DNA from: Serinicoccus kebangsaanensis
GTDB taxonomy: Bacteria; Actinomycetota; Actinomycetes; Actinomycetales; Dermatophilaceae
Reading direction: 5' to 3'
Length of the DNA: 64,000 nt
Assembly (NCBI RefSeq): GCF_008919445.1
Contig: NZ_VSLG01000003.1
Location: 310,001 to 374,000 of the forward strand
Shown: one piece after another, positions 1,194 to 64,000 of the stretch
How the letters are laid out: each line of letters starts with the position of its first letter
How positions within the stretch are numbered: the stretch's first letter is position 1
Notes under the pieces: generated by a model
Seen by the model: only the letters and a program-made list of their open reading frames with translations
Database searches by the model: none
Told to the model about the DNA's origin: nothing
Position numbers and translations under genes: made by a program

Positions 1194-2081
1194 TCAGCCC
1201 TTCACCGAGCCGGCCATCAACCCGCCGACGAAGTACCGGCCGAGCAGCACATACACCAGCAGGGTGGGCAGGCTGGCGATGAGCGCACCGGCCATGGACA
1301 CGCCATAGTTGGACAGCATCGCGCCGTTCGCCAAGTTGTTCAGTGCCATCGTCACCGGCCCGTTGTTCGCCGTGGAGAAGAAGACTGCGAAGAGGAAGTC
1401 GTTCCACGCCGAGGTGAACTGCCACAGCAGCACCACGACGAAGCTCGGGATCGAGATGGGCAGCACCACCGAGAAGTAGGTCCGCAGCATCCCCGCACCG
1501 TCCACCCGGGCCGACTCGATCAGCTCCATCGGCACCGTCTCGTAGTAGTTGCGGAAGATGAGGGTGCAGATCGGGATGCCGTAGACGACGTGGAGCAGGA
1601 TCAGCGACGGTATGCCGTTGGGCACGTTGATGTCGATCATCAGCTGCACCAGGGGGATCATCACCGCCTGGTACGGGATGAACATGCCGAATAGGATGAG
1701 CGTGAAGACGAGGTTCGCGTGCGGGAACCTCCAGCGCGAGAGCACGAACCCGTTCATCGACCCCAGCAGCGAGGACAGCACCGCTGCCGGGATGACCATC
1801 GCGAAGGACCGGATCAGCGCCGGTGACAGCGCCTCCCACGCCTCGGCCCAGTTCTCCACCGTCCACGCCTGCGGGAAGAACCATGTCCGCGACGGGCTCG
1901 CGTCGCCGATGCCCTTGAAGCTCGTGACGAACAGCACGTAGACCGGGATGAGGACCAGCAGCAGCGAGGCGAGGAGGACGGCATACCGGAACGTGCGCCA
2001 GCCCGGGCTCCCGGTGCGCCGCGACGGCTTGCCCGACCCCGTGATCTCCCGCGTCCCCGGGGCGGTGGTGACAGCACCCAT
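1194..2081 (-). CDS. carbohydrate ABC transporter permease (MalG/CUT1 type)
   Basis: Inner-membrane permease of 295 residues, the usual length for MalG-like subunits. It has six hydrophobic segments starting at residues 33-55. The cytoplasmic EAA loop that contacts the ATPase is at about 181-197 (ETVPMELIESARVDGAG). This is the last gene of a three-gene minus-strand operon (lipoprotein, MalF-like, MalG-like), starting 3 bases after the upstream permease stop. The family takes up mono- or oligosaccharides; the substrate cannot be read from the sequence. No ATPase gene is present, as is common in actinobacteria that share one MsiK-type ATPase among several importers (family knowledge). Confidence 0.93.
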   Translation of the reverse strand: MGAVTTAPGTREITGSGKPSRRTGSPGWRTFRYAVLLASLLLVLIPVYVLFVTSFKGIGDASPSRTWFFPQAWTVENWAEAWEALSPALIRSFAMVIPAAVLSSLLGSMNGFVLSRWRFPHANLVFTLILFGMFIPYQAVMIPLVQLMIDINVPNGIPSLILLHVVYGIPICTLIFRNYYETVPMELIESARVDGAGMLRTYFSVVLPISIPSFVVVLLWQFTSAWNDFLFAVFFSTANNGPVTMALNNLANGAMLSNYGVSMAGALIASLPTLLVYVLLGRYFVGGLMAGSVKG

Positions 2082-2084
2082 GCC

Positions 2085-2987
2085 TCAGCCCCGCTTCCTG
2101 GCCCGCGCGTCGTACCAGAGGTACGGCACGACCGCGAGCGCCACGAGGACCAGCAGAATGACGCCGACCGCCGCCGAGTTCGCGTAGTCGTAGATGGTGG
2201 CGAAGTTGTACATGTCGATCGCCGGCACCTTGGTGGAGTAGGCCGACTGGTTCGCAATAGACATGATCAGGTCGAACGACTTCAGCGACATGTGGCCGAT
2301 GATGATCAGCGCGGACAGCGCGACCGGCGACAGCTGCGGGAAGACGACGTGCCGGTAGAGCTGCAGCTCGCTCGCCCCGTCGACCCGCGCCGCCTCCCGC
2401 AGCTCGTCCGGTATGCCGCGGAAGCCCGCGAGGAACAGCGCCATGACATAGCCCGACAGCTGCCAGATCGCCGGCAGCGCGATGGCGAGGATGCCGTAGC
2501 GCGGGTTCGTCCACCACTCGTTCTGCAGGAAGCCGAGCCCGGTCATCTGGAAGAGCCGGTTGAGCCCGGACGCCTGCTCGCCCACGTTGGAGTTGAGCAG
2601 CCACTTCCACACCACACCTGAGGCGACGAAGCTGACGGCCATCGGGAAGAGGTAGACCGACCGGAAGATCCCCTCACCCTTGATCGGCCGCTCCAGCACC
2701 CACGCCCAGCAGAAGCCGATGATGAGCGTGCCGAGCAGGAAGACCACCGTGAAGATGACCAGGTTGCGGAGCGAGTGCTGGAAGGCGGGGCTGGCGAGCA
2801 GCTCGGTGTAGTTGCTCAGCCCGACGAAGCCGACCTCGTCCCGGCCGGTCGCCTGCGCCGCGGTGTGCTTGTCGGTCAACGACTCCCGGAAGCTCAGCCC
2901 GATGAAGCCGTAGACGAACACACCGAGCAGCAGCAGGGACGGGCTGATGAGCAGCAGTCCCGGGATCCAGGACCTGACGCGGGTCAC
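2085..2987 (-). CDS. sugar ABC transporter permease (MalF/CUT1 type)
   Basis: The protein has 300 residues when started at GTG 2987, which overlaps the stop of the upstream lipoprotein gene (GTGA). The open frame runs further upstream but only through shadow sequence of that gene. It has an N-terminal membrane helix at about 8-32, a periplasmic loop, then five more helices. The EAA motif (GIPDELREAARVDGAS) lies near residues 201-216. It pairs with the MalG-like subunit downstream to form the translocation channel. The tight overlaps imply equal, coupled expression of the whole importer. Confidence 0.93.
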   Translation of the reverse strand: MTRVRSWIPGLLLISPSLLLLGVFVYGFIGLSFRESLTDKHTAAQATGRDEVGFVGLSNYTELLASPAFQHSLRNLVIFTVVFLLGTLIIGFCWAWVLERPIKGEGIFRSVYLFPMAVSFVASGVVWKWLLNSNVGEQASGLNRLFQMTGLGFLQNEWWTNPRYGILAIALPAIWQLSGYVMALFLAGFRGIPDELREAARVDGASELQLYRHVVFPQLSPVALSALIIIGHMSLKSFDLIMSIANQSAYSTKVPAIDMYNFATIYDYANSAAVGVILLVLVALAVVPYLWYDARARKRG

Positions 2988-4300: not shown

Positions 4301-4362
4301 CGCTCGTCCCTTCGCACGTCGTCGTCACGGGCCGGAGGTCGCACCAGCCACGGGTGATCGTG

Positions 4363-4392
4363 AGGCTAACCACGGCCGTTAAGTCTTGTCAA
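4363..4392 (-). promoter_or_regulatory. promoter of the sugar ABC operon
   Basis: On the minus strand TTGACA (4392-4387) is followed by an 18-bp spacer and TAGCCT (4368-4363), a near-consensus sigma-70-type promoter. The -35 hexamer overlaps, on the other strand, the TTGTCA of the regulator promoter. Confidence 0.55.
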
Positions 4393-4394
4393 CG
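4377..4394. promoter_or_regulatory. imperfect dyad, candidate ROK operator
   Basis: CGTT at 4377-4380 and AACG at 4391-4394 bracket an 18-bp partly symmetric stretch covering both -35 elements. A repressor bound here could block both divergent promoters. The assignment is positional inference only. Confidence 0.3.
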
Positions 4395-4416
4395 ATAGTT
4401 ATGGCTGTGTTATTTT
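4386..4416 (+). promoter_or_regulatory. promoter of the ROK regulator gene
   Basis: TTGTCA at 4386-4391 and TATTTT at 4411-4416 (19-bp spacing). The -10 box ends 7 nt before the GTG start, so transcription would begin at or next to the start codon (leaderless mRNA). Confidence 0.45.
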
Positions 4417-4423
4417 CCGAGTC

Positions 4424-5578
4424 GTGGACAAACAGAAGGTCCTCTCGACCGGCCGCAGCCCCCGGCACCGTGGCAACGCCGCCGCCGTGCTGCGGGTGGT
4501 CGGCGACCGCGACGAGGTGACCCGCCAGGAGATCGCCCGGCACACCGGTCTGTCCCGCAGCACCGTGGCCGACGTCGTCACCCGGCTCCTCGACAGCGGC
4601 GACCTCAGGGAGGCCACCCGGCAGCCCGACGGGAGGGGGCGCCCGGCACAGCTGGTGCGTCGCGCCGACCCCGAAGGCCTGCTGCTCGGCATCGACCTCG
4701 GCCACAACCACGTGTCCGTCGCGCTCGGGGACGCCGCCGCCGCGGTCCTGCACGAGATCACCGTCGACGCCGACCTCGACCGGGAGCCGGCGGCCACCAT
4801 CGACCTGACCCGTGACCTGGCGCTGGAGATCCTGGCCCGCGAGGGCGCCACCCTGGCGGACGTGGCGGGGGCCGTCGCGGGGCTCCCCGGGCCGATGAGC
4901 CACGACGGGGTCCTCGCGGTCCCCTCGATGCTGGGCCAGGGCAAGATGAGCGACCCGGGACGGCGACTGACCCGCGTGCTCGGTATGCCCGTGCCCGTCA
5001 CCACCGACACCGTCCTCGGGGCGGTCGGCGAGATGCGCAGCGGGGCCGCCGTGGGCGTCGACGACTTCGTCTTCGTCAAGGCCTCGCACGGGGTCGGGTG
5101 CGCGCTGGTCCTGGGTGGCCGCGTCTACCGCGGCAGCGGCGGACTCGCCGGTGAGTTCGGGCATACGCGGGTCGATGACAGCACCATCCGCTGCCGGTGC
5201 GGCAACCTCGGCTGCCTCGAGACCGTCGCCGGGCTGGAGCGGGTGCAGGCCGAGCTCCCCCACCCCTACACCGAGGACGCGCTCACCGACGCCGGCGCAG
5301 GTGACCCCGTCGTGGCGCGGGTCGTGACGGACGCTGGCCGGGCCGTGGGCACCACCCTCGCGCCCGTCTGCAACGCCCTCAACCCCGCCCTCGTCGTGAC
5401 CGGCGGCCGGCTCGGGGCGGTGCACGCCGAGGCCTTCGGCAAGGGCGTCCGGGAGGCGATCGACCGGGACGCGCAACCGGCCATCGCCAGCGCGCTGCAG
5501 GTCGTCCCCGCGCAGCACGGCATCCGGGCCGAGCGGATCGGCGCGCTGCTGCTCGCCCGGCGGGAGGCGATGGCCTGA
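4424..5578 (+). CDS. ROK family transcriptional regulator
   Basis: A 384-residue protein with an N-terminal winged helix-turn-helix (about 25-60, TRQEIARHTGLSRSTVADVV) fused to a ROK sugar-kinase-like domain beginning GIDLGHNHVSVALG. The ROK zinc site is present: His247 in GEFGHTRVD and Cys257, Cys259 and Cys264 in CRCGNLGCLE. The kinase Asp is retained in a TTDTVLGAVGE context, where the usual preceding Asn is Thr, so catalytic activity is doubtful. GTG 4424 follows a -10 box by 7 nt. Its divergent position to the sugar importer suggests a sugar-responsive repressor of that operon and of itself. The ligand is unknown. Confidence 0.92.
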   Translation: MDKQKVLSTGRSPRHRGNAAAVLRVVGDRDEVTRQEIARHTGLSRSTVADVVTRLLDSGDLREATRQPDGRGRPAQLVRRADPEGLLLGIDLGHNHVSVALGDAAAAVLHEITVDADLDREPAATIDLTRDLALEILAREGATLADVAGAVAGLPGPMSHDGVLAVPSMLGQGKMSDPGRRLTRVLGMPVPVTTDTVLGAVGEMRSGAAVGVDDFVFVKASHGVGCALVLGGRVYRGSGGLAGEFGHTRVDDSTIRCRCGNLGCLETVAGLERVQAELPHPYTEDALTDAGAGDPVVARVVTDAGRAVGTTLAPVCNALNPALVVTGGRLGAVHAEAFGKGVREAIDRDAQPAIASALQVVPAQHGIRAERIGALLLARREAMA

Positions 5579-5585
5579 GCTGCGG

Positions 5586-6191
5586 CTAGAGCCAGCCGCG
5601 CTCCTCGGCATACCTCGCCGCCTCCACCCGGGTCGCCGTGCCGGTCTTGCCGATCGCGGACGACAGGTAGTTGCGCACCGTCCCGGGCGACAGGAAGAGG
5701 TGCCCCGCGATCGACTGCACCGGGGAGCCGTCCAGCGCCTGCCGCAGCACCTCGCGCTCGCGGTCGGTGAGCGGGTTCGGGCCGCCGATGAGCGACTCGG
5801 TGGCCAGCGCGGGGTCCACGACGCGCAGCCCCGCGTGCACCCGCCGCACCGCCTCGGCGAGCTCGGGCGCGGGCGTGTCCTTCACCACGAAGCCGCTGGC
5901 CCCCGCGTCCATCGCGCGCCGCAGATAACCCGGCCGCCCGAACGTCGTCACCATGAGGCACCGCGTCGACAGGCCCGCGTCCCGCAGCTGCTGCAGCACC
6001 TCGATGCCGTCCAGCCCGGGCATCTCGATGTCGAGCAGGCATACCTGCGGCTGGGCCTGGCGCACCGCGTCCAGCACCGCGTCGCCACGCCCCACCTGCG
6101 CGACCACGTCGATGTCGCGCTCCAGGTCGAGCAGCGCCGCCAGGGCGCCGCGCACCAACGCCTGGTCGTCGGCCAGCAGCACCGAGATCAC
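5586..6191 (-). CDS. LuxR/NarL-family response regulator
   Basis: A 201-residue two-component regulator. The receiver domain (1-120) has the acidic pair D8-D9, phospho-acceptor Asp54 in CLLDIEMPG, a Thr in VTTFG and the conserved Lys in VVKDTP. The C-terminal HTH_LUXR domain (about 138-195) contains LTDREREVLRQALDG and SPGTVRNYLSSAIGKTGTATR. Its ATG overlaps the stop of the upstream kinase gene (ATGA), so the pair is co-translated. It resembles DesR-type regulators by length and layout, but the regulon cannot be inferred. Confidence 0.92.
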   Translation of the reverse strand: MISVLLADDQALVRGALAALLDLERDIDVVAQVGRGDAVLDAVRQAQPQVCLLDIEMPGLDGIEVLQQLRDAGLSTRCLMVTTFGRPGYLRRAMDAGASGFVVKDTPAPELAEAVRRVHAGLRVVDPALATESLIGGPNPLTDREREVLRQALDGSPVQSIAGHLFLSPGTVRNYLSSAIGKTGTATRVEAARYAEERGWL

Positions 6192-8965: not shown

Positions 8966-10012
8966 ATGCCGACTCCCCGCGTCCCGCTGTCCGTGCTCGA
9001 CCTCGTCCCCCGGTCCCAGGGCATGACCCCCGCGACCGCGATCGAGGAGTCCGTCGCCCTGGCGCGCGAGGTGGACCAGCTCGGCTACCGCCGCTTCTGG
9101 ATGGCCGAGCACCACGGCTCGGAGGCCTTCATGTCCTCCGCCACCTCGCTGCTGCTGGGCCACGTCGCGCACGCGACCGAGCGGATCCGCCTGGGCTCCG
9201 GCGGGGTGATGCTGCCCAACCACTCGCCGTTGATGGTCGCGGAGTACTACGGGACCCTCGCGACCATGCACGGCGACCGCTTCGACCTGGGGCTGGGCCG
9301 TGCGCCCGGCACCGACCCGATGACCGCCGCCGCCCTCTCCCGGTCCAGCGGCCACCTGCCCGACTTCGCCGGCGAGGTGGCCGACCTGCAGGCATACCTC
9401 GGCGCCCCGCAGGCCGGCCGCCGGGTGCGTGCCCTGCCCGGCGAGGGCACCCAGGTGCCGCTGTGGATGCTCGGCTCCTCGACCGGTGGTGCCCAGGTCG
9501 CCGCTGCTCTCGGGCTGCCGTTCTCCTTCGCCTCCCACTTCGCCCCGGACCAGCTGCAGGAGGCGCTCAGCCTCTACCGCGACCGGTTCCGCGCGGATGC
9601 CGAGACCGCCGAGGTCGACCGGCCGACCACCATGGCCGGGGTCAACGTCCTGGTCGCCCCGACCCAGGAGGAAGCCGACCACCTCTTCACCACGGCGCAG
9701 CTGATGGCGATCCGCATCCGCTCGGGTCAGCCCGCGCCGCTGGACCCACCGGTCGAGAGCCTGGCCGCCGTCGTGCCGACCGAGCTGCTCCCGCTCGCCA
9801 ACGCGCACCAGTCGGTGAAGATGGTGGGCACGCCCGAGACCGTGGTCGAGAAGCTCGAGGCGTTCGCCGCGGCGCACGAGCTCGACGAGCTCATCGTCAC
9901 CACCTACACCTTCGACCCCGAGCTGCGCCGCCGCAGCTACCGCATGCTCGCGGAGGCCTGGGGGGTGGAGGCGTCGACGTCCTCGGGCGAGTCGATCGCG
10001 GCCACCACCTGA
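8966..10012 (+). CDS. LLM-class flavin-dependent oxidoreductase (MsnO8-type)
   Basis: A 348-residue member of the luciferase-like monooxygenase TIM-barrel family. Family signatures are LSVLDLVPRSQGMTP at the start, then GYRRFWMAEHH, SSATSLLLGHVAHATERIRLGSGG, LPNHSPLMVAEYYGTL and FDLGLGRAPGTDP. The layout matches the MsnO8 subfamily of alkanal-monooxygenase-like oxidoreductases that use reduced flavin. ATG 8966 begins the conserved region. It stands alone, so the substrate is unknown. No recognisable ribosome-binding site lies directly before the start. Confidence 0.88.
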   Translation: MPTPRVPLSVLDLVPRSQGMTPATAIEESVALAREVDQLGYRRFWMAEHHGSEAFMSSATSLLLGHVAHATERIRLGSGGVMLPNHSPLMVAEYYGTLATMHGDRFDLGLGRAPGTDPMTAAALSRSSGHLPDFAGEVADLQAYLGAPQAGRRVRALPGEGTQVPLWMLGSSTGGAQVAAALGLPFSFASHFAPDQLQEALSLYRDRFRADAETAEVDRPTTMAGVNVLVAPTQEEADHLFTTAQLMAIRIRSGQPAPLDPPVESLAAVVPTELLPLANAHQSVKMVGTPETVVEKLEAFAAAHELDELIVTTYTFDPELRRRSYRMLAEAWGVEASTSSGESIAATT

Positions 10013-11449: not shown

Positions 11450-12280
11450 GTGACCTCCGCCGACGCCGACACGGCCGCGCACCACGCACCAGCCCCCACC
11501 CTGCGCACCCTGCCACCGGCTGCAGGGGTCTCGGTCTCGGCCCTGCTCCTCTTCGGCCTGCACCTGCCCTGGATCGGGTATGCCCTCCTCGTCGTCAGCC
11601 TGGTCGCCGCGTTCCTGCTGCACCGCGAGCTGTTCCGCGACCTGCTGCTCATCGCCCTGGGCATCGGCATCGTGTCCACCACGTCGGTCGAGGCGGACAT
11701 CAGCTGGGACATGTTCTTCCTGCTCGGAGCGGTCCTCACCGCCGCGGTCCTCGCACCCGTGCTGGTCGACCGCTTCGTCTACCGCCGCAGCGCGATCACC
11801 TTCCCGTGGATCACCGGCCGGCGGTGGACCCGGCTCCAGTGGGGCTACGTGGTGTCCGTCCCCGTCCTCGGCTACCTCATCCTGCCGGCCTACTTCATCC
11901 ACTCCGGCAGCTACCAGAACTGGCCGCCCATCCAGACCGCGAGCGAGTTCGGCCGGTTCTTCGTCGGCGTCAACGCCGTGGGGCTGTGGGACGAGCTGTT
12001 CTTCATCTGCATCTGCTTCGCCCTGCTGCGGCGGCACTTCCCGCTGTGGACGGCGAACGTGCTCCAGGCCACGATCTTCGTGTCTTTCCTCTGGGAGCTC
12101 GGCTACCGCGCCTGGGGACCGCTGCTGACGATCCCCTTCGCGCTGCTGCAGGGCTACATCTTCACCCGCACCAAGTCCCTCACCTACGTCGTGCTGATCC
12201 ACCTGCTCTTCGACGCCGTGGTGTTCCTGGCCATCGTGCACGCGCACGACCGCAGCATCTTCCCCTTCTTCCTCTACTGA
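11450..12280 (+). CDS. multi-pass membrane protein, CPBP (CAAX protease/bacteriocin-processing)-like
   Basis: A 276-residue protein with about eight membrane helices. The C-terminal third resembles CPBP intramembrane proteases: LWDELFFICICFALLRRHFP, then FVSFLWELGYRAWGPLL, GYIFTRTKSLTYVVLIHLLFD. The usual first motif EExxxR is here DELFF, without the second Glu and the Arg, so it is either a divergent or an inactive member. GTG 11450 has CACAAT 6 nt upstream, compatible with a leaderless start. It converges with the RecQ gene. Function unknown. Confidence 0.65.
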   Translation: MTSADADTAAHHAPAPTLRTLPPAAGVSVSALLLFGLHLPWIGYALLVVSLVAAFLLHRELFRDLLLIALGIGIVSTTSVEADISWDMFFLLGAVLTAAVLAPVLVDRFVYRRSAITFPWITGRRWTRLQWGYVVSVPVLGYLILPAYFIHSGSYQNWPPIQTASEFGRFFVGVNAVGLWDELFFICICFALLRRHFPLWTANVLQATIFVSFLWELGYRAWGPLLTIPFALLQGYIFTRTKSLTYVVLIHLLFDAVVFLAIVHAHDRSIFPFFLY

Positions 12281-12317: not shown

Positions 12318-14495
12318 TCAGCCCTCGATCGCCAGCGCGAGCGGCAGCACCGCCTCGGCACCCGCCAGACGCAGCGCCCGCGCGGCGACGGTCATCGTCC
12401 ACCGTGAGTCGACGACGTCATCCACCAGCAGCACCGGCCCGCCCGCCCCGCGGACCGCCTCGCCGAGCTGGTCCCCGACGACGACCCGGTCCCAGACGTT
12501 GGCGAGTCGGAAGGCGCTGTTGCCCCCTGGCTCGCCCACCGGACCGCCGTGCGCGAGGTCGAGGGTCCCGAGCAGCGGCAGCCGCCCGATCTGGCTGATC
12601 TGCTCCGCCAACGACCCGACGACCGCCGGACGTCGGCGCGACGGCATCGCCACCACCCCGACCGGACGCTGCGCCCAGTCCCACCCCGCCAGCACCTGCA
12701 CCACGGCGCGGGTCACCTGCTCCGGGACCGGCTCCCCGGCCACCGTCTCCTGCTCCGGGTCCTCCGGGTCCGACTGCACCGATGTGCCCGCTTCCAGCAC
12801 CGTGCGCAGCCGCTGCCCCCACCCGAGGTCGGAGAGCCGGGCCAGCGCCCGGCCGGGAGCGGCCTGCTCCTCCGGCGGGATCTTGCCCTTGACCTCCACG
12901 CCGAGCCGGGGCATACCCGACGGCCACTGCCCTCGCGGGTCGACCGGCACGCCCACCGCACCCAGCCGCTGCTGCGCGTCCCCCACCGCCGCCTCCGGGA
13001 CCTCCGTGGGATACCAGACGTCGGCGCACCGGTCGCACCGACCGCAGGGTGCCGCCGTCGGGTCGTCCAGGCACTCCTGCAGGAAGGCCATCCGGCACCC
13101 GTCGGTCTGCTGGTAGCCGACCATGAGCTCGGCCTCGCGCACCCGCGCCTCGGCCACCCGGGTGTAGCGCTCCCGGTCGTAGACCCATGGCTCGCCGGTC
13201 GCGGTCCACCCGCCCTGCACCTTCGTCACCGCCCCGTCGACGTCGAGGACCTTGAGCAGCAGCTCGAGTCGGGTCCGACGCACGTCGACAATGGTCTCCA
13301 GCGCCGGCGTCGACAGCGGTCGGTCGCTCTCCCCGAGCGCCGTCAGCACCGCGTCCGCCTGGTCCTGCCGCGGCATCGACACCGTGGCGAAGTAGTTCCA
13401 GATGTCGCGGTCCTCCGACCCCGGCAGCAGCAGCACGTCCGCCCGCTCCGTGGCCCGCCCCGCGCGCCCCACCTGCTGGTAGTAGGCCACCGGCGAGCTG
13501 GGCGCCCCGAGGTGCACCACGAATCCCAGGTCGGGCTTGTCGAAGCCCATCCCCAGCGCACTGGTCGCCACCAGCGCCTTGACCTGGTTGTCGCGCAGCG
13601 CCGCCTCCAGCCGCTCGCGGTCCTCGGTGTCGGTGCGCCCGGTGTAGGCCGCGACCTCGTGCCCGGCGGCGCGCAGCGCCTCGGCGACGTCCTCGGCGGC
13701 CGACACCGTGAGGCAGTAGATGATCCCGCTGCCGGGCAGCGTCCCGAGATGGGCCAGCAACCACCCGAGCCGCTGCTCCGGCGTGAGCCGGGGCAGCACC
13801 CCCAGCCGCAGCGAGGACCGGGCCAACGGTCCCCGGATGGTCCGCACCTCCCGACCCCCGACCCCCAGCTGCTCGGCCACGTCCTCGACGACCCGCTCGT
13901 TGGCCGTCGCCGTCGTCGCGAGCACCGGCGTGCCCCCGGGGAGGGCGTCCAGCAGGGTCCGGATCCGGCGGTAGTCCGGGCGGAAGTCGTGCCCCCAGTC
14001 GCTGATGCAGTGCGCCTCGTCCACCACCAGCAGACCGCAGCGCGCCGCCAGGTCCGGCAGCTGCTCGTCCCGGAACCTCGGGTTGTTCAGCCGCTCCGGG
14101 CTGACCAGCAGCACGTCGACCTCGTCGGCGGCGAGCGCGGAGCGCACCTCGTCCCACTCGGTCGCGTTGGCGGAGTTCATCGTCACCGCCCACACGCCCG
14201 CCCTCGAGGCGGCCGCGATCTGGTCACGCATCAGCGCCAGCAACGGCGACACGATCACCGTCGGCCCCGCTCCGCCCGCCCGACGCAGGGCCGTCGCCAC
14301 GAAATACACCGCCGACTTGCCCCATCCCGTCCGCTGCACCACCAGCACCCGGGATCGCTCCTCGACCAGCGCGCGCACGGCCTCCAACTGCCCGTCGCGG
14401 AAGTCCGCGTCCTCGCGCCCCACCAGCCGCCGCAGCGCCTGCCCCGCTGCCTCCGTGAGCGTGGGCGGCGTCCTGACCTGAGTCTCATCCGGCAT
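12318..14495 (-). CDS. RecQ-family ATP-dependent DNA helicase with C-terminal phosphoribosyltransferase-like domain
   Basis: A 725-residue protein. SF2 helicase core: Walker A at about 54-61 (QRTGWGKS), DEAH box with RecQ aromatic-rich loop (VVDEAHCISDWGHDFRPDYR), motif VI QQVGRAGRATERA. The RecQ zinc region follows (CRMAFLQECLDD, CGRCDRCAD). The final ~150 residues are not RecQ-HRDC: they end in VLLVDDVVDSRWTMTVAARAL, the PRPP-binding loop pattern of phosphoribosyltransferases. ATG 14495 is preferred over an upstream GTG because TAGCGT lies 7 nt before it (leaderless pattern). It unwinds DNA 3'-5' in repair (family knowledge). The PRTase tail has an unknown role. Confidence 0.88.
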   Translation of the reverse strand: MPDETQVRTPPTLTEAAGQALRRLVGREDADFRDGQLEAVRALVEERSRVLVVQRTGWGKSAVYFVATALRRAGGAGPTVIVSPLLALMRDQIAAASRAGVWAVTMNSANATEWDEVRSALAADEVDVLLVSPERLNNPRFRDEQLPDLAARCGLLVVDEAHCISDWGHDFRPDYRRIRTLLDALPGGTPVLATTATANERVVEDVAEQLGVGGREVRTIRGPLARSSLRLGVLPRLTPEQRLGWLLAHLGTLPGSGIIYCLTVSAAEDVAEALRAAGHEVAAYTGRTDTEDRERLEAALRDNQVKALVATSALGMGFDKPDLGFVVHLGAPSSPVAYYQQVGRAGRATERADVLLLPGSEDRDIWNYFATVSMPRQDQADAVLTALGESDRPLSTPALETIVDVRRTRLELLLKVLDVDGAVTKVQGGWTATGEPWVYDRERYTRVAEARVREAELMVGYQQTDGCRMAFLQECLDDPTAAPCGRCDRCADVWYPTEVPEAAVGDAQQRLGAVGVPVDPRGQWPSGMPRLGVEVKGKIPPEEQAAPGRALARLSDLGWGQRLRTVLEAGTSVQSDPEDPEQETVAGEPVPEQVTRAVVQVLAGWDWAQRPVGVVAMPSRRRPAVVGSLAEQISQIGRLPLLGTLDLAHGGPVGEPGGNSAFRLANVWDRVVVGDQLGEAVRGAGGPVLLVDDVVDSRWTMTVAARALRLAGAEAVLPLALAIEG

Positions 14496-14502
14496 ACCGA
14501 CG

Positions 14503-45491: not shown

Positions 45492-45498
45492 GACCGGT

Positions 45499-46258: not shown

Positions 46259-47167
46259 ATGCGACGCGTGCTGGTGGTCGGAGCGGGAGTGGTCGGGCTG
46301 ACCTGCGCGATCCGGCTGCTGGAGGCGGGGCACCGTGTCGAGGTGCTGACCCGCGACCGCCCGGCGGAGACGACCTCGTCGGTGGCCGCGGCGCTGTGGT
46401 ACCCCTACCGCGCGCTCCCCCAGGACAGGGTCACCGCGTGGTCCCGCGCGACCTACGCGACGCTGAGCGACCTCGCCGCCGACCCGGCCACGGGCGTCAC
46501 GATGCGACCCGGGACCGAGCTGCTCCGCGAGGCCCGACCCGACCCCTGGTGGGCCGGCGCCGTCCCGGACCTGGTCCACGTCGACGGCCTCGACGGGTAT
46601 GCCGGTGGCTGGCGCTTCACCGCCCCGGTCGCGGAGATGGGGGTGCACCTGCGCTGGCTCGAGGGGCGCCTGGCGGAGCTCGGCGGCACCGTGACCCGGA
46701 CCAGCCTGTCCCGCCTCCCGGAGGGTGAGGGCCTGGTCGTCAACGCCTCCGGGCTGGGAGCGCACGAGCTGGCCGCCGACCCGACCGTGACCCCGGTCCG
46801 CGGGCAGGTGGTGGTCGTCGAGCAGGTGGGGCTGGGCGAGTGGTGGCTGGACCCCGGCGCCCCCGGTGGACCGACCTACGTCGTGCCGCGCTCGCACGAC
46901 ATCGTGCTCGGCGGCACCGACCAGCCCGGCGAGACCGGCCGCGACCCCGACCCCGCCGTCGCCGACGACATCCGCGCCCGCGCGGCAGAGCTGGTGCCCG
47001 CGCTGGCGGGCGCGCGGGTGCTCCGGCACGCCGTGGGGCTGCGGCCGGTGCGCCCGCAGGTGCGGGTGGAGCGTGCGGGCGAGGTCATCCACTGCTACGG
47101 CCACGGCGGCGCGGGGGTGACCCTCAGCTGGGGCTGCGCCGACGAGGTCGTGGAGCTGGCCGGATGA
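46259..47167 (+). CDS. FAD-dependent oxidoreductase, D-amino-acid-oxidase-like (DAO)
   Basis: A 302-residue flavoprotein. Rossmann motif RRVLVVGAGVVGLTCAIRLLEAGH, SSVAAALWYPYRALP, GLVVNASGLGAHELAAD, TPVRGQVVVVEQ, YVVPRSHDIVLGGTDQPGE, LRPVRPQVRVER and YGHGGAGVTLSWG. These match D-amino acid oxidase/DAO family proteins; the Arg in LRPVRP corresponds to the substrate-carboxylate Arg of DAAO. It probably oxidises a D-amino acid with O2, making an imino acid and peroxide. The histidine phosphatase gene overlaps its stop (ATGA). Confidence 0.9.
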   Translation: MRRVLVVGAGVVGLTCAIRLLEAGHRVEVLTRDRPAETTSSVAAALWYPYRALPQDRVTAWSRATYATLSDLAADPATGVTMRPGTELLREARPDPWWAGAVPDLVHVDGLDGYAGGWRFTAPVAEMGVHLRWLEGRLAELGGTVTRTSLSRLPEGEGLVVNASGLGAHELAADPTVTPVRGQVVVVEQVGLGEWWLDPGAPGGPTYVVPRSHDIVLGGTDQPGETGRDPDPAVADDIRARAAELVPALAGARVLRHAVGLRPVRPQVRVERAGEVIHCYGHGGAGVTLSWGCADEVVELAG

Positions 47168-47763
47168 GCGACCTGCAGTGCCCGGCCCGGATCCTGCTGA
47201 TCCGCCACGCCGAGGCGACCTACGAGGCACCGGTGACGACCGGGTCCGGCGGCACGCTCAGCGCCCGGGGCCGGCAGCAGGCCCGGGAGGCCGCGTCACA
47301 CCTGCAGCAGGAGAGGGTGGTCCACGTCTACTCCTCGATGCTGGCCCGTGCCGTGCAGACGTCCGAGCTCGTGGCGCAACGGCTGGGGGTGGAGGTGACG
47401 GCCCGTGAGGGCCTGGAGGAGTTCGACCCGGGCGTCCACCTCGGCAGCCCGCACGACTCCGGCTGGGCCGGGGCGACGATGCAGGCGTGGGCCGCGGGAG
47501 ACCTGGACGCCCGGTGGGAGGGCGGCGAGAGCGCCCGCGAGATCGCGACGCGCGTCACGGTGGTGCTCGAGGAGGTGGCCGACCTGCACCGCGGCGAGAC
47601 CGTCGTGGTGGTGGCCCACGGTGGCGCGATCCTGGCGACGCTGGCGTCGCTGGGGCGACCGGACCTCGCCACCGACCTCTCGCCCTGCGCGGGCGTGATC
47701 CTGGAGCGGGACGGCGACGGCTGGCGGCATACCCCCGGCGGACCCGGACCAACGTCGGGATAG
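47164..47763 (+). CDS. histidine phosphatase family protein
   Basis: A 199-residue phosphoglycerate-mutase-like protein. Catalytic His in ILLIRHAEATYE, Arg in YSSMLARAVQTSELVA, Glu in EGLEEFDPG, and second His in VVVVAHGGAILATLASL. The substrate is unknown; SixA/CobC/PhoE-like hydrolases are options. ATG 47164 overlaps the amino-acid-oxidase-like stop. The TAG stop lies inside the arm of a large palindrome that ends the transcript. Confidence 0.92.
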   Translation: MSDLQCPARILLIRHAEATYEAPVTTGSGGTLSARGRQQAREAASHLQQERVVHVYSSMLARAVQTSELVAQRLGVEVTAREGLEEFDPGVHLGSPHDSGWAGATMQAWAAGDLDARWEGGESAREIATRVTVVLEEVADLHRGETVVVVAHGGAILATLASLGRPDLATDLSPCAGVILERDGDGWRHTPGGPGPTSG

Positions 47764-49387: not shown

Positions 49388-49504
49388 GATCTCCTTCGTC
49401 CGGCGGTATGCCTGCGCCGGCGTGTGCTGTCGCTCGGCCGGGCGGTCCGCCTCAGCCTCTCACTGGTGCAACGCCGGGAGCCAGCGATTTGTTGCCGGGC
49501 CGGG

Positions 49505-49933
49505 TCACATCGTCAGGTCGGCGTAGCGGTAGCGCGTGGGCGTGAAGGTGAGCCGCTCCTCCGGCCCGAGGCTCTCCGCGGCGAACGCCAGGTAGCCCTC
49601 CAGCGCCTCGCCGCTCAGGTAGCGCGCGGCGATCGCCCGCGACTCCTTCGCCGTGGCCGGGGCCCGGTCGGTGAGCTCCAGGTCGACCGACACGAACCGG
49701 GTCCGCGGGCTGACGGTGTGGACCACGAGCGTCGCCGCTCCCGATGCGGCCAGCAGCCGGGCCTTGCGCGTCGTGGCGGACGTCACCAGCCACACCGCAC
49801 CGTCCGGCTCCACGGCATACCAGAGCGGGGTCGCCGCGGGCGGGCCACCGTCGGCGGAGACCGCCAGCACCCCGACGTGCGGCTCGGCCAGGAACGCCCG
49901 CGCCGCCTCCTCGTCGAACGTCTCCTCATCCAT
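49505..49933 (-). CDS. pyridoxamine 5'-phosphate oxidase family (split-barrel flavin) protein
   Basis: A 142-residue split-barrel protein. Pattern: FLAEPHVGVLAVSADGGPPAATPLWYAVEPDG, VWLVTSATTRKARLLAASG, FVSVDLELTD. This resembles F420- or FMN-binding PPOX-like proteins with a 'PxxTPLWY' strand. ATG 49933 is chosen because TAGCGT lies 7 nt before it (49946-49941). Probably a small reductase or cofactor-binding protein; the substrate is unknown. Confidence 0.82.
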   Translation of the reverse strand: MDEETFDEEAARAFLAEPHVGVLAVSADGGPPAATPLWYAVEPDGAVWLVTSATTRKARLLAASGAATLVVHTVSPRTRFVSVDLELTDRAPATAKESRAIAARYLSGEALEGYLAFAAESLGPEERLTFTPTRYRYADLTM

Positions 49934-52689: not shown

Positions 52690-53648
52690 CCTCCCGCGCC
52701 GGCGACGACGTGACTCCCGACCAGGTCGAGGGCGCGCCGGAGCAGGTCCGGGTCGTCGTGCTCGAGCCAGACGATCCGGCCGTCCGGGCCGAACCACGAC
52801 TGCTGCCGGCGCGCCAACCGGCGGGTCGCCGCGGCCGTGTCCTGGATCGCCGCACCCTCGTCCAGCTCGCCGTCCAGCTGGCGCAGGGCCTGGGCATACC
52901 CCACCGCGCGCGAGGCCGTCCTGCCCTCCCGCAGGCCGCGGCCGACGAGGTCGGCGACCTCGGCCGGCAGCCCGTCCGCCCACATCCGCCCGGCCCGTCG
53001 GCCGATCCGTGCGTCCAGCACCTCGCGGTCGGCCCGCAGGCCGATGAGCACCGTGGGCTGGAGCAGCTCCCGGGTCGGCAACGTGGCGCTGAACGGTCGC
53101 CCGGTCAGCTCGATCACCTCCAGCGCCCGCACGACCCGGCGGCCGTTGCGCGGCTCGATCCGGGCGGCTGCCTGGGGGTCACGCCCCACGAGGACGTCGT
53201 GCAGGGCCTCCGCGCCCCGCTCCTGCAGCTCCGCCTCCCAGCGGGCGCGCACCTGGGGGTCGGTGGGCGGGATCTCCAGCCGGTCCAGCAGGGCGCGGAC
53301 GTAGAGACCGGAGCCGCCCACGACGACCGGCACCCGGCCCCGGGACCGGATCTGCGCCAGGTCGGCGCGCGCCGCGCCCTGGTATGCCGCCACGCTCGCC
53401 TCCTCCCGCACGTCCAGCACGTCCAGCTGGTGGTGCGGGACGCCCCGGCGTGCCGCCATGGTGAGCTTGGCCGTGCCGATGTCCATCCCGCGGTAGAGCT
53501 GCGAGGCGTCGGCGTTCACCACCTCACCGTCCAGCGCGAGCGCCAGCTCCACCCCGAGGTCCGACTTCCCCGTCGCCGTCGGTCCCACCACCGCGACCAC
53601 CGGCACCCTGCCCGGAGGAACGGCCTCCCCACCCCGGCGCTCACGCAT
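52686..53648 (-). CDS. miaA: tRNA dimethylallyltransferase
   Basis: A 320-residue enzyme. P-loop VVAVVGPTATGKSDLGVELA, catalytic region VNADASQLYRGMDIGTAKL, VPHHQLDVLDV, AVVGGSGLYVRALLDRL-type block (VVVGGSGLY), RVVRALEVIELTGRPFS, and the C-terminal SRAVGYAQALRQLDGE. It transfers dimethylallyl from DMAPP to A37 of tRNAs reading UNN codons. CACACT lies 6 nt before ATG 53648. The antiporter gene follows with a 4-base overlap. Confidence 0.96.
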   Translation of the reverse strand: MRERRGGEAVPPGRVPVVAVVGPTATGKSDLGVELALALDGEVVNADASQLYRGMDIGTAKLTMAARRGVPHHQLDVLDVREEASVAAYQGAARADLAQIRSRGRVPVVVGGSGLYVRALLDRLEIPPTDPQVRARWEAELQERGAEALHDVLVGRDPQAAARIEPRNGRRVVRALEVIELTGRPFSATLPTRELLQPTVLIGLRADREVLDARIGRRAGRMWADGLPAEVADLVGRGLREGRTASRAVGYAQALRQLDGELDEGAAIQDTAAATRRLARRQQSWFGPDGRIVWLEHDDPDLLRRALDLVGSHVVAGAGG

Positions 53649-55286: not shown

Positions 55287-57974
<2,688 letters not shown>

Positions 57975-57985
57975 CGGCATACCGG

Positions 57986-58783
57986 ATGAGCGCGCGCGCA
58001 CCGGAGGGGTTGCTGCCGACGCTGGGTGACCTCGGCGGGTTCTTCGAGGTCACCGACCCGACCGTCCGCGACAGCGACGCGGTCGCCTGGACCGACGCGC
58101 TGGCACCGGACGCCCTCACCGCCCGGGTCGCGACCATCCGGGCCGCGCTCGGGCGGGCCACCGGGCAGACGGCCGAGGACGTGGACGTCCGGGTCGCCGT
58201 CTCGGCGCTGCAGGTCGGCCTCGCCTCGCGCCTGTGGTCGGTGGCCCTGGCCGGTGCCGTCCTGCACGACTGGGTCCCGGACCTCACCTCGGCCAACCTC
58301 GTGGCCAGCCCGGTGCACGCAGGTCGGGTGCCGCTGGGCCTGGTCGACCCCGGGGCCGGGTATGCCGTCACCGGCCTGCCCGAGATCACCGACCGGGTCG
58401 CGGGGACCGTGGTGGACGACAGCCTGGCGGCGCTGGAGGCCGCCTGCACGCAGGTCGGACGCACCTCGGCCCAGGTGCTGCGCTCCAACTCTGCCTCCAG
58501 CCTGGTCGGGGCGGCGCGGGTGCTCGCGGGGGCCAGACCCTCGTCCGGCCCCCGCGCGTGGGAGGTGGTGCGCCGCCTGCTCGAGGTGCCCGCACTGGCC
58601 CGGGGCGGCGGTGTGCGCGAGCGCTCGGGGCTGCCGGCCGGCACGGGCGGCGGGATGGAGCACCACGCCGAGGCGTTCCTGCGACGCGGGTGCTGCCTCT
58701 ACGACCGGCTTCCCGGGCACGGGCTGTGCCCGGACTGCGTGCGCGCGGTGCGGCGCCCGGACCTGGTCACGCCCGGCCACTGA
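57986..58783 (+). CDS. FhuF-like (2Fe-2S) protein
   Basis: A 265-residue protein. The C-terminus has the cysteine pattern RRGCCLYDRLPGHGLCPDCVRAV, the [2Fe-2S] motif of FhuF-type ferric-siderophore reductases. The rest is alpha-helical (ARVATIRAALGRATG, WSVALAGAVLHDWVPDL). It is cytosolic. A role in reducing ferric siderophores is family inference; no siderophore transporter is nearby. ATG 57986 lies 12 bp after the ppdK stop, so it may share that transcript. Confidence 0.8.
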   Translation: MSARAPEGLLPTLGDLGGFFEVTDPTVRDSDAVAWTDALAPDALTARVATIRAALGRATGQTAEDVDVRVAVSALQVGLASRLWSVALAGAVLHDWVPDLTSANLVASPVHAGRVPLGLVDPGAGYAVTGLPEITDRVAGTVVDDSLAALEAACTQVGRTSAQVLRSNSASSLVGAARVLAGARPSSGPRAWEVVRRLLEVPALARGGGVRERSGLPAGTGGGMEHHAEAFLRRGCCLYDRLPGHGLCPDCVRAVRRPDLVTPGH

Positions 58784-60655: not shown

Positions 60656-60673
60656 CGAGACCGCTGTCGAGCT

Positions 60674-60716: not shown

Positions 60717-62203
60717 CCACGAAGCCGCACGGTGAACCGCACGACGGTCCCGTGCGGCTTCGTCGTCTCCCAGGAGATCTGACCCCGGAGGTCGGTGATC
60801 AGGGCCTCCACGATCTGCGTCCCCAGGCCCTGCCGGTCCGACGTGGCGGGGGCATACCCGCTGCCGTTGTCGGTCACCGACACCTCCAGCAGGTCGACCT
60901 CGGCCTCGTCGTCCCGTGCCCGCCGGGCCGCCACCACGACCCTCGCGGCCTCGCCCCCGGACCCACCCTCCTCGAAGCCGTGCTCCACCGCGTTGTGCAC
61001 GAGCTCGGCCAGGACCATCGCCAGGTGCGTGGCGTCGTCCGGCGGCAGCCAGCCGAAGGATCCCTCCACCGCGGTCGCCACGACGGCCTGCGTGGAGGCG
61101 ACCTCGACGGTCGCCCGCAGGATCCGGGCGGCGACGTCGTCGAAGTCGACCCGTTCGGAGAACCCCTGGCTCAGGGTGTCGTGCACCAGCGCCACCGTCG
61201 AGAGGCGCCGCCCGGCCTCGGCGAGAGCCTCCTGGGCCTTCGGGTCGTCCAGCCGACGGGACTGCAGACGCAGCAGTGCCGCCACCGTCTGCAGGTTGTT
61301 CTTGACCCGGTGGTGGATCTCCCGGATCGTGGCCTCCTTGCTCAGCAGCTCACGCTCGCGGCGGCGGATCTCGCTCACGTCGCGCAGCAGCAGCAGGGCA
61401 CCGACCCGCTCACCCCCACGGGTCAACGGGACCGAGCGCATGGTGAGGTTCATCCGGCCGGTCTCGATCTCGGTCCCCCACGGCGCCCGACCGGTGAGCA
61501 CGAGGGGCACCGTCTCGTCCACGGTGGACCCCTGCGCGATGCGGGAGGCGACGATCTGCGCGAGGTCCGCGCCGTTGACGTGGTCGGTGTGCCCGAGCCG
61601 GCGCAACGCGGACACGGCGTTCGGGCTGGCGTAGTCGATGATGCCCTCGGCGGTCAGCCGCAGCACCCCGTCGCCGACGCGGGGCGTCCCCCGCCCGACG
61701 CCGGTCGCGACGTGGTCCATCGGGAAGGCACCCTCGGCGATCATCGAGAACAGCTGCTGGCTGATCTGGAGGTAGTTCACCTCCAGCCCACCCTGCTGGC
61801 GCATGTTCTGCACGTCGGTGTGCCGCACCAGCACCGCGATCGGTCGGCCGGTGCGGACCACGGGGACGTACTGCTCCCGCACGAAGCCGATCTCGTCCGG
61901 CGTCGTCGAGCGGCCGGTCTCCATCACCTGGCTCAGCAGGCGTGCCCGCTCCGCCCCGGGCGTCTCGCCGATGACGTCGTCGTGGTAGAAGTTCGGGCCG
62001 GTCGACGGTCGCGCGTGCGCCGCGAGGAACCACGGCGAGACGTGCGGGTCGGCCTCGTCGTCCCGCTGCACCGGCAGCCACAGCGTGAGGTCGGCGAAGG
62101 CCAGGTCGGCCACCATCTGCCAGTCGCCCACCAGACGGTGCAACCAGTCGATGTCCGCGCCGGACATCGAGGAGCGCGACAGCGTGTCCCGGAGTGCAAC
62201 CAC
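60701..62203 (-). CDS. pdtaS: sensor histidine kinase PdtaS (GAF-PAS-HisKA_2)
   Basis: A 500-residue soluble kinase without membrane helices. N-terminal GAF-like domain (about 15-150), a PAS domain (about 180-290, GVLRLTAEGIIDYASPNAVSAL), then HisKA_2 with the phospho-acceptor His in REIHHRVKNNLQTVAALLRL, and an ATPase domain with LAELVHNAVEHGFE, TDNGSGYAP, GLGTQIVEAL. In mycobacteria PdtaS with PdtaR (ANTAR regulator) controls nitric-oxide and copper-linked responses and sits beside whiB1, as here. GTG 62203. pdtaR is not in the window. Confidence 0.94.
   Translation of the reverse strand: MVALRDTLSRSSMSGADIDWLHRLVGDWQMVADLAFADLTLWLPVQRDDEADPHVSPWFLAAHARPSTGPNFYHDDVIGETPGAERARLLSQVMETGRSTTPDEIGFVREQYVPVVRTGRPIAVLVRHTDVQNMRQQGGLEVNYLQISQQLFSMIAEGAFPMDHVATGVGRGTPRVGDGVLRLTAEGIIDYASPNAVSALRRLGHTDHVNGADLAQIVASRIAQGSTVDETVPLVLTGRAPWGTEIETGRMNLTMRSVPLTRGGERVGALLLLRDVSEIRRRERELLSKEATIREIHHRVKNNLQTVAALLRLQSRRLDDPKAQEALAEAGRRLSTVALVHDTLSQGFSERVDFDDVAARILRATVEVASTQAVVATAVEGSFGWLPPDDATHLAMVLAELVHNAVEHGFEEGGSGGEAARVVVAARRARDDEAEVDLLEVSVTDNGSGYAPATSDRQGLGTQIVEALITDLRGQISWETTKPHGTVVRFTVRLRGSATG
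60721..60761. repeat. second perfect inverted repeat, inside the end of pdtaS
   Basis: GAAGCCGCACGG and CCGTGCGGCTTC, 12 bp each with a 17-nt loop, five bases from the preceding hairpin. The tandem arrangement at the 3' end of the kinase gene could strengthen termination of whiB1 read-through. Confidence 0.5.
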
Positions 62204-62223
62204 ACCCCGATTGTGGCAAACCC

Positions 62224-64000
62224 CTAGTCGGCGGACCCCTGCCGGACCAGACCACGCAGCGTGCGCAGGGCGACCGAGAGCGGAGCCAGGTCCGGCTCGC
62301 TCATCCCGCTGACCGTGCGCAGCACCTGGCTGGTGCGGACCAGGGCGTCGCGGTTCTCACCCATCCAGTCCCGCACCCGGGCCAGCGAGTCCGCCTCGTC
62401 GGCGGCCTCCCCGGCGGAGTCGGTGCGCTCGACCACGGTGCGGGTCAGACCACGCATGACGCCGTAGAGGTCGTCCCGCAGCGCGCCGCGGGCCAGCGAG
62501 GACCACCGGTCCTCCCGGGGCAGGTGCGACACGTGCGTGAGCAGGTCGTCGATCCGGAACGCCTCGGACACCCCGAAGTAGACCTCGGCGACCTCGTCCA
62601 CGTCGCGGTCGATCTCGCCCGCGAGCTCGGCGACGTCCAGCAGCGAGTAGCTGTCCAGCAGCGAGGCGTAGAGCTCGGCGAGGTCCTCCGGTATGCCCTG
62701 GTCCCGGGCCCACTGGGCACGCTGGGCCCACCGCTCGCGCTCGTCCCCCTGCAGCAGCTCCCCCAGCTTCGGGACGAGCGACTGGACCGGGGAGGCGAAG
62801 CGCTCGATCTCCTCGTCCATCCCGGTCGAGAGCGACCGGTTGTTGAGGAACCAGCGGGTGGCCCGGTCCAGCAGCCGACGGACCTCGAGCAGGAGCTCGG
62901 TCTGCGCCTCGGTCGGCACCTGGTTGTCCAGCGCCTCGACCGCTGCGGTGAAGTCGCCCAGCGCGAAGACCGAGCGGACCACGTGGAAGGCCCGGGTGAT
63001 CTGCGCGATGGTCGCACCGGTCTCCTCGACCGCGCGGAAGGCGAAGGACACCCCGCCCCGGTTGATCATGGCGTTGGCGATCTCGTTGACGACGATCTGC
63101 CGCCGCAGCGGGTGCTCCAGGATCTGCTCCTCGGCGCGCTCGCGCAGCGGCTCGGGGAAGTAGTGCAGCAGGCTGGTCAGCAGGGCCGGGTCGTCCGGGA
63201 GCTCGGTCTCGATCAGCTCCTGCTTCAGGGCCAGCTTGGAGTAGGCGACGAGCACCGAGAACTCCGGGCTGGTGAGGCCGACCCCGGCCTTCTCCCGCTC
63301 GTCCCACTCGGCGTCGTCGGGGAGGAACTCCAGCTCGGGCTCCAGACCGGCGTGCTCGCCCAGGTAGCGGATCAGCCGCTGGTGCACCGTGGCCATCACG
63401 CCCCGCTGGTGCCGCCCGTTGCCGATGAGCACGTTCTGGTCGTAGTTGTGCCGGAGCACCTTCTCGGCGACCTCGTCGGTCATCGAGGCCAGCAGCTCGT
63501 CCCGGTCCTCGAGCGAGAGCTGGCCGCCCTGCACCAACGGGGTCAGGGCGATCTTGATGTTCACCTCGTGGTCGGAGGTGTCCACGCCGGCCGAGTTGTC
63601 GATCGCGTCGGTGTTGACGTGCACGCCGGTGGTCGCCGCCTCGATGCGGCCCCGCTGGGACAGGCCCAAGTTGCCGCCCTCGCCCACGACGCGGACGCGC
63701 AGGTCCCGGCCGTCGACCCGGATCGGGTCGTTGGCCCGGTCACCGACCTGGGCGTCGGTCTCGGTCGAGGCCTTGACGTAGGTCCCGATGCCGCCGTTCC
63801 AGAGCAGGTCCACCGGGGCGGAGAGGATGGCGCGCAGCAGCTCCTGCGGGGTCATCGCCTGGGCGTCGGACTCGATGCCGAGCCGCTCCCGCACCTGCGC
63901 GGTGATCGGGATGGACTTCTTCGTGCGCGGGTAGACGCCGCCTCCCTCGCTGATGAGCGAGGTGTCGTAGTCCTCCCAGCTGGAGCGGGGCAGGTCGAAC
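62224..64000 (-). CDS. NAD-glutamate dehydrogenase, 3' part (large GDH)
   Basis: The C-terminal 592 codons of a large (usually ~1600-residue) NAD-specific glutamate dehydrogenase; the 5' part lies beyond position 64000. The visible start reads FDLPRSSWEDYDTSLISEGG, a conserved stretch of the family. The Rossmann part follows (VDLLWNGGIGTYVKAS, VVGEGGNLGLSQRGRIEAA, VHVNTDAIDNSAGVD, HNYDQNVLIGNGRHQRG) and the alpha-helical C-terminal region. It deaminates glutamate to 2-oxoglutarate with NAD. The pdtaS gene follows by 20 bp on the same strand. Confidence 0.95.
   Translation of the reverse strand, partial: FDLPRSSWEDYDTSLISEGGGVYPRTKKSIPITAQVRERLGIESDAQAMTPQELLRAILSAPVDLLWNGGIGTYVKASTETDAQVGDRANDPIRVDGRDLRVRVVGEGGNLGLSQRGRIEAATTGVHVNTDAIDNSAGVDTSDHEVNIKIALTPLVQGGQLSLEDRDELLASMTDEVAEKVLRHNYDQNVLIGNGRHQRGVMATVHQRLIRYLGEHAGLEPELEFLPDDAEWDEREKAGVGLTSPEFSVLVAYSKLALKQELIETELPDDPALLTSLLHYFPEPLRERAEEQILEHPLRRQIVVNEIANAMINRGGVSFAFRAVEETGATIAQITRAFHVVRSVFALGDFTAAVEALDNQVPTEAQTELLLEVRRLLDRATRWFLNNRSLSTGMDEEIERFASPVQSLVPKLGELLQGDERERWAQRAQWARDQGIPEDLAELYASLLDSYSLLDVAELAGEIDRDVDEVAEVYFGVSEAFRIDDLLTHVSHLPREDRWSSLARGALRDDLYGVMRGLTRTVVERTDSAGEAADEADSLARVRDWMGENRDALVRTSQVLRTVSGMSEPDLAPLSVALRTLRGLVRQGSAD

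Follow-up and report, generated by a model that had tools for sequence, protein, structure and literature searches.

The 64,000-nucleotide window analyzed here (bases 310001-374000 of contig C24 of the source genome, G000) is rich in one octamer, GGTATGCC, whose excess had been noticed in an initial annotation of the sequence. The octamer is a truncated view of a wider unit. The family-wide core of this unit is GTATGNCG, which in G000 mostly takes the form GGTATGCC, roughly GTATG[CT]CB, and a comparison across related genera, as that annotation had proposed, identified the word as a trait of one actinobacterial family, ON or OFF by lineage. We take this family to be Dermatophilaceae in the GTDB sense, which NCBI divides into several families. 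Genomes were classed as ON (at least 200 copies of GTATGNCG per Mb) or OFF (at most 110 per Mb), using cut-offs chosen after seeing the data; among 186 family genomes, 108 were ON, 68 were OFF, and 10 lay between and were omitted from the Fisher tables. Judged on genomic patterns, GTATGNCG with its dialects is, on balance, probably a family-specific DNA-uptake sequence. This reading fits best because the abundance, symmetry, dialects, orientation bias, on/off history, scarcity in inserts, and site conservation of the word together match those of uptake sequences, and we know of no other word showing this whole combination.

Excess of the octamer and the unit behind it

A recount of the window gave 39 copies of GGTATGCC, 19 on the + strand and 20 on the - strand, and 60 copies of the hexamer GTATGC (29 and 31, respectively), in agreement with the approximate numbers first reported; the G+C content, given there as about 72%, was measured as 73.0%. 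The order-2 Markov expectation for the octamer in the window is about 1.1. Throughout G000 (3,503,838 bases, 37 contigs), the octamer occurs 1,764 times (894 on the + strand and 870 on the - strand), compared with 10 occurrences (4 and 6) of the reversed word. In a 464-kb set from this genome, consisting of L001-L020 and the window, GGTATGCC was the top 8-mer by z-score, with 203 copies vs 8.5 expected from the order-2 Markov model. The 390 genes predicted in this set by a simple script of our own contained 181 octamers, compared with 8.6 ± 3.2 in 20 synonymous-codon shuffles, a ratio of 21. The window and genome counts, together with the shuffle, confirmed the octamer excess and showed that it extends genome-wide and does not depend on protein sequence or codon use. 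Both refuting conditions given in the initial annotation fail: the word lies far above its Markov expectation, and the GGNATNCC variants are not enriched equally: the octamer reaches 23.9x its expectation, and the other forms behave differently.

Single-base substitutions in the 464-kb set delimited the unit. Variants at G2, T3, A4, T5, and G6 were near or below expectation or were limited to a handful of copies, as seen at position 3 (A 0.7x, C 0.5x, G 0.6x) and position 6 (A 2.4x with 4 copies, C 0.9x, T 3.6x with 2 copies). Position 1 tolerated A (18.8x) and T (16.5x) and, to a lesser degree, C (3.3x), while T (7.6x) and A (3.2x) were tolerated at position 7. The base 3' of the octamer was A in only 1 of 203 cases. 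The wider pattern in G000 is about [AGT]GTATG[CT]C[CGT], with 47 sites in the window. G034, which belongs to another genus, shows GTATGNCG with an invariant CG; the last base of the core is relaxed in the genus of G000. Across 24 ON data sets, the core was enriched 5- to 18-fold, with dialects. The N is almost exclusively C in G133, G166, G188, and G200 and nearly free in G034, G033, G087, and G066; these finer dialect statements are provisional, as they derive from 14-60 kb samples for most of these genomes. The 100 kb read from G034 (L034-L038) also contained overlapping 10-mers that build CAACCCCTGACA (11 copies each) and GATCTGCGGAC (14 copies each), perhaps a repeat array.

Mutation bias, or codon or peptide effects, might be proposed as the source of the word, and its commonest reading frame, Tyr-Ala (TAT GCC) with a T-ending Tyr codon, would suit such an origin. 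This explanation is refuted. The excess over the synonymous shuffle, the lack of comparable enrichment among single-base neighbors of the core, and a density between genes that is 1.3-2.6 times the coding density all contradict it, as do OFF genomes of similar G+C that lack the word. The shuffle and these OFF relatives rule out effects of codons, peptides, and composition. One variant of this explanation, raised in the initial annotation, was the deamination of methylcytosine in the palindrome GGCATGCC to give GGTATGCC. We rejected it because no single palindrome yields GTATGNCG with an N that is nearly free in several genera. The more general proposal, that selection or drive at the DNA level shaped the word, is supported by the synonymous shuffle and by the comparison of sites with same-phase controls described below.

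Distribution, history, and conservation

The copy number varies widely among relatives. G000 contains 1,900 copies of GTATGNCG, and the highest count, in the 4.7 Mb of G087, was 8,019. The octamer was also counted in 57 relatives, of which 30, the congeners of G000, had 38 to 2,180 copies. Three OFF genomes sit inside otherwise ON genera: G023 (126 copies), G065 (82), and G140 (68). Named loci were taken from a ComEC alignment search (best 80 of 567, up to 23 kb each). ON densities were observed at the ComEC loci of Ornithinimicrobium, Tetrasphaera/Phycicoccus elongatus, Knoellia, Arsenicicoccus, Humibacillus, Terrabacter, and Intrasporangium oryzae, and the loci of Janibacter, Dermacoccus, Intrasporangium flavum, and one uncultured Phycicoccus were OFF. 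Ornithinimicrobium genomes are the neighbors of G000 in the ComEC tree, and G000 was assigned to this genus on that basis.

Outside the family, none of 385 genomes of the class reached the ON density, with densities worked out by eye; the sample comprised 393 genomes, each at least 80% complete, of which 8 belong to the family. The densest non-family genome found by eye was G223, at about 140 copies per Mb and 1.8 times the count of the reversed word. No comparable sister word was detected in the comEC neighborhoods examined from Nocardioidaceae, Kribbella, Streptomyces, and Streptosporangiales. Weak excesses of GTATGNCG, attributable to chance or to a faint related word, were seen in G485 (406 vs 95 for the reversed word; f42/g115, and some other members too) and in two Kribbella loci, L126 and L129 (8 vs 2.7 expected).

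The ON and OFF states follow descent and have changed repeatedly. On a 59-row ComEC tree, 9 changes of label are required, every one of them forced by supported branches, compared with 14.2 in shuffles; on a 79-row tree the number is 12, of which at least 8 are forced, compared with 25.2. Both are single-gene trees built by a quick method, in which the rows of G015 and G023 fill under half of the columns; in the larger tree, four genomes of the in-between class were labeled by the ratio to the reversed word (G075, G078, and G079 as OFF, G090 as ON), and named duplicates and G046 were dropped. The trees are most simply read as showing a gain early in the history of the family and repeated losses thereafter, with gene-tree error or regains as possible complications. 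Given that the state has switched about ten times within a single family, comparative genomics should be able to find the determinant.

The sites themselves are conserved between close relatives. Between G000 and G007, 24 of 38 aligned sites were exactly kept, vs 28.4% of 7,004 nearby same-phase control octamers. Around comEC, other near congeners kept 5 of 9, 6 of 10, and 3 of 5 sites. The OFF congener G023 kept none of 7 sites, vs 17.4% of controls, and the T at position 5 was altered in 6 of the 7. The word is scarce in two large inserts, those in comEC of the ON genomes G002 and G018: the ends that were read contained 2 copies of GTATGNCG in 29.5 kb, whereas 28.5 kb of flanking chromosome contained 15 (p = 0.001). 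A 9.4-kb island of lower G+C in a pilus locus of G000, tad-b, contained 2 copies and no octamers. In G007, the two lowest-G+C stretches were poor in the word, and one highest-G+C stretch was poor in the octamer.

The main rival explanation is an architectural word comparable to HIP1 (highly iterated palindrome 1), in which a chromosomal DNA-binding protein acting in nucleoid structure, replication, or repair uses GTATGNCG, and loss of the protein entails loss of the word. HIP1 of cyanobacteria (GCGATCGC) is a dispersed, abundant, lineage-specific octamer of debated function. The octamer studied here likewise shows dispersed, Poisson-like spacing (coefficient of variation 0.9-1.0), has no strand polarity, and is on or off by lineage. 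The scarcity of the word in inserts does not discriminate between this explanation and uptake. HIP1 is palindromic, however, and GTATGNCG, which differs from its own reverse complement, is not; its dialects and repeated state changes also argue against an architectural role. A candidate protein was not found, though none was searched for systematically. On this evidence, we regard the architectural explanation as unlikely, while giving it more weight than the two explanations that follow.

A restriction-modification or epigenetic self-mark, such as an asymmetric site of type I, type III, or a bacteriophage exclusion (BREX)-like system that is selected for, might also use a word that is asymmetric, short, and partly degenerate. 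The tad-b island of G000 encodes a Type ISP restriction-modification protein, a conceivable source of such a mark. The targets of known restriction systems are generally avoided, and the systems themselves vary from strain to strain. The persistence of one core across dozens of genera makes a self-mark appear improbable. Even less probable is a word of the Chi, FtsK-orienting polar sequence (KOPS), or terminus type, whose polarity would guide a recombination or segregation motor. Its expected genome-wide frequency is indeed observed, but the copies divide almost equally between the strands of G000. Along the replication strands of G007, 20 stretches contained 179 leading and 209 lagging copies (p = 0.14), and no gradient was seen; here the origin was assumed to lie near coordinate 0 from a weak skew, and the strand counts were summed by hand. 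The argument from equal orientation against KOPS and Chi, made at the outset, was therefore borne out by this check.

Uptake machinery and the weighing of the uptake reading

If GTATGNCG is an uptake sequence, word-bearing DNA would be preferred by a receptor at the cell surface, probably one of the small pilins of a Tad/Flp competence pilus. ComEA, ComEC, and DprA would import this DNA, and recombination would copy the word-bearing alleles into the chromosome, so that copies accumulate by biased transformation. Upon failure of the uptake system, the word would no longer be renewed and would decay.

In the tested genomic respects, the word appears to resemble known uptake words, except in terminator pairing and gene-end bias, both of which are not universal. 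Inverted pairs of uptake words serving as terminators, for instance, are common among known systems without being general. The accessible text of a 2016 review describes uptake-restricting tags for two families, Pasteurellaceae and Neisseriaceae (PMC5031613). Similar to the DNA uptake sequence (DUS) of Neisseriaceae (ATGCCGTCTGAA and its dialects; receptor ComP), GTATGNCG occurs in hundreds to thousands of dispersed copies, is family-wide, and has dialects round a short core, as reported for Neisseriaceae in the available part of another study (PMC3630211). The two words are unrelated, and their shared string ATGCCGT looks like chance. Furthermore, the host here is Gram-positive, PilM was not found in 49 of 50 genomes, and inverted-pair terminators are lacking. 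With the uptake signal sequence (USS) of Pasteurellaceae (AAGTGCGGT), the word shares abundance, symmetry, and clade restriction, differing in sequence, in phylum, and in the lack of the gene-end bias that the accessible text of PMC2346458 describes for Pasteurellaceae.

The same source, in its available part, reports that one orientation of uptake words is commoner in reading frames (PMC2346458). A comparable bias was detected for the wider pattern, and not for the octamer alone. In G000, the wider pattern occurred 158 times in one orientation relative to genes and 94 times in the other (p = 7e-5), and one gene orientation was commoner in four of four data sets (158:94, 180:129, 122:72, and 254:167; p from 0.004 to 3e-5). 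The initial claim of no strand preference therefore holds for the chromosome (894/870) and for the octamer relative to genes, but not for the wider pattern.

Candidate machinery is encoded in the window itself. A gene for ComEC, the DNA channel of transformation, lies at 26079..28424 on the - strand and contains the Competence (PF03772, E 2.2e-46) and metallo-beta-lactamase (PF00753, E 2.3e-14) domains of Pfam. A gene for ComEA, a DNA-binding helix-hairpin-helix protein, lies at 28421..29311 on the - strand, with HHH_3 (PF12836, E 3.6e-18) and SLBB (PF10531, E 1.6e-14) domains. The actinobacterium Micrococcus luteus also has comEA and comEC. The likeness to uptake sequences suggested by the initial annotation remains the best fit to the data, but its argument from the presence of comEA and comEC is weak alone because ComEC and DprA occur in nearly all family genomes regardless of the word.

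For DNA capture, the layout of the loci makes a Tad/Flp pilus the natural candidate in this family. In M. luteus, an actinobacterium with two tad loci, both loci are needed for transformation according to the available text of one study (PMC4322843), and two such loci, tad-a and tad-b, recur in 10 of 10 genomes examined here; the terms "uptake sequence" and "uptake signal" are absent from the available portion of that text. Secretion-type ATPases were detected in 50 of 50 genomes. The small tad-b proteins were named Flp, TadE-like, and TadG-like by place and size, and only the TadG-like protein matched Pfam (PF13400). Our main ON/OFF tables covered genomes at least 90% complete (92 ON, 62 OFF), and the Fisher tests ignore descent. 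The tad-b TadE-like pilin was missing from 0 of 92 ON and 9 of 62 OFF genomes (p = 2e-4), or, by genus, from 0 of 26 ON and 6 of 19 OFF (p = 0.003); when less complete genomes were included, the counts became 2/108 and 12/68. Similarly, tad-b tadA had no match at 1e-60 in 1 of 92 ON and 9 of 62 OFF genomes (p = 0.001).

Lesions in individual OFF genomes would fit the proposed decay. In G023, the comEC alignment ends at residue 459 of 872 and continues into unrelated sequence at a contig end, so that an assembly fault is possible; the remainder of its Competence domain was not found in the G023 genome. In G140, a ~37-kb element with a serine recombinase at its edge splits tadC near the 3' end (L210:10531-20000, L211, and L207:1-7550). 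Mobile elements that break competence genes in an intragenomic conflict have been described in the accessible parts of two reports (PMC4774983, PMC11472951); the inserts in comEC (G002, G018) and tadC (G140) are similar, with both targets here in one actinobacterial family. 

Further rearrangements were observed at these genes. The inserts of G002 and G018 (L048-L051) break comEC at a conserved TGMTHLSAVSGSN stretch, with an overlap of about 9 residues between the comEC pieces on either side. Phage-like open reading frames were recognized by eye in the G002 insert, whose junction carries a large serine recombinase (Pfam Resolvase and Recombinase). In the OFF genome G124, about 28 kb may interrupt comEC at a comparable point, the small piece being a weak match. 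In G201 (L216), the tadC match ends early, and flp and both TadE-like genes were not found in the 20 kb read, where a piece of tadG remains. tadC, like comEC, looks to be a repeated insertion target.

Several observations weigh against the uptake reading. ComEC was detected in 180 and DprA in 185 of the 186 family genomes, ON and OFF alike, and the presence of either was rejected as the ON/OFF switch. The ComEA frame was found in all 31 loci examined, 10 of them OFF, with no ON/OFF difference by eye. Competence genes alone thus fail to predict the state of the word, as an architectural role would allow. In the ON genomes G002 and G018, moreover, comEC is split by the inserts, which are about 40 kb long. 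In another, G015 (L052), the comEC match covers residues 49-432 and 569-871, which adjoin in a single frame, and about 136 residues of the Competence domain (about 433-568) are apparently absent; both ON and OFF genomes include other ComEC matches that are split or partial. The OFF genome G065 retains the com genes and tad-b with no clear lesion. More distant ON congeners kept fewer of the sites (O. tianjinense, 3 of 11, with controls at 15%; G021, 1 of 5; several others, 0 of 1). The octamer showed no significant orientation relative to genes in the 464-kb set (98 sense, 83 antisense, p = 0.30), a gene-end bias was looked for and none was seen, and no inverted-pair terminators were found, with 1 close opposite-strand octamer pair in these 464 kb. 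PilM, the mark of type IVa pili, was present in 1 of the 50 genomes. A search for reports of natural transformation or uptake experiments, made under Intrasporangiaceae and Ornithinimicrobium only, found none.

The association with the pilus is fragile. The tad-b pilin is retained in 53 of the 62 OFF genomes, and the contrast shrank under looser counting: to 2/92 vs 10/62 (p = 0.004) with weak pilin matches scored as missing, to 4/92 (G000, G026, G129, G130) vs 9/62 (p = 0.04) with the genomes that have only a tad-a-like ATPase scored as lacking tadA, and to 11/92 vs 13/62 (p = 0.17) with best tadA-b matches worse than 1e-130 scored as lacking, the loosest count, under which the association vanishes. 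Because the pilin loss amounts to about 3 events on the ComEC tree (2 independent pairs), the tree-corrected test has no power. The word accompanies the tad machinery only weakly. Loss of tad-b as the switch is suggestive, and is weakened by the exceptions, the tree, and the looser counting. Finally, G000 itself is ON, and its tad-b locus lacks tadA (save a 25-residue scrap), tadB, and most of tadC, which G007 retains. ON genomes with broken machinery would fit if the loss was recent and the word decays slowly, at the cost of an extra assumption.

As a sub-case of the uptake reading, the word in G000 might be a relic that is decaying there and is still active in relatives. The missing tad-b genes of G000 were replaced by the 9.4-kb island mentioned above (C2, L222:434-10048; 61% G+C), which carries a gene for a SIR2-like protein (PF13289) as well as the Type ISP gene (PF18135); flp and the small pilin genes remain. 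However, the copy number of the word in G000 resembles that of tad-b-bearing relatives, implying that any loss was recent, and other pili might serve. We consider the relic possible but doubtful.

Extending the uptake reading, GTATGNCG would represent a third, independently evolved self-recognition code for transformation, placed near the base of the family, read by a Tad/Flp pilus, and repeatedly lost, with mobile elements and islands contesting comEC and tadC. We put this fuller scenario forward tentatively, at close to even confidence. If true, the tag strategy evolved outside the Gram-negatives, in high-GC Gram-positives and with no type IVa pilus, pointing to natural transformation in Ornithinimicrobium, Tetrasphaera/Phycicoccus, Knoellia, Terrabacter, and Intrasporangium, and a single word would then be available as a handle for genetic tools. 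Should the word have no part in uptake, thousands of sites across these genomes would be shaped by a DNA-binding process yet to be described. Literature searches on uptake sequences in Actinobacteria, Intrasporangiaceae, and Ornithinimicrobium returned no report, most subscription journals being outside their coverage, and those on the bare octamer gave, among the matches listed, unrelated results in every case.

Positions of the octamer in the window

By word count, GGTATGCC lies on the + strand at 1609..1616, 2410..2417, 4982..4989, 11577..11584, 20532..20539, 21533..21540, 22696..22703, 26536..26543 (within comEC), 32085..32092, 34719..34726, 40537..40544, 40820..40827, 42058..42065, 45496..45503, 46596..46603, 49405..49412, 53381..53388, 58359..58366, and 62690..62697. 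The copies on the - strand are at 1980..1987, 5607..5614, 6038..6045, 9391..9398, 12910..12917, 14491..14498, 21889..21896, 21940..21947, 23860..23867, 24331..24338, 35682..35689, 36558..36565, 38497..38504, 40615..40622, 44040..44047, 47726..47733, 49814..49821, 52893..52900, 57976..57983, and 60851..60858.

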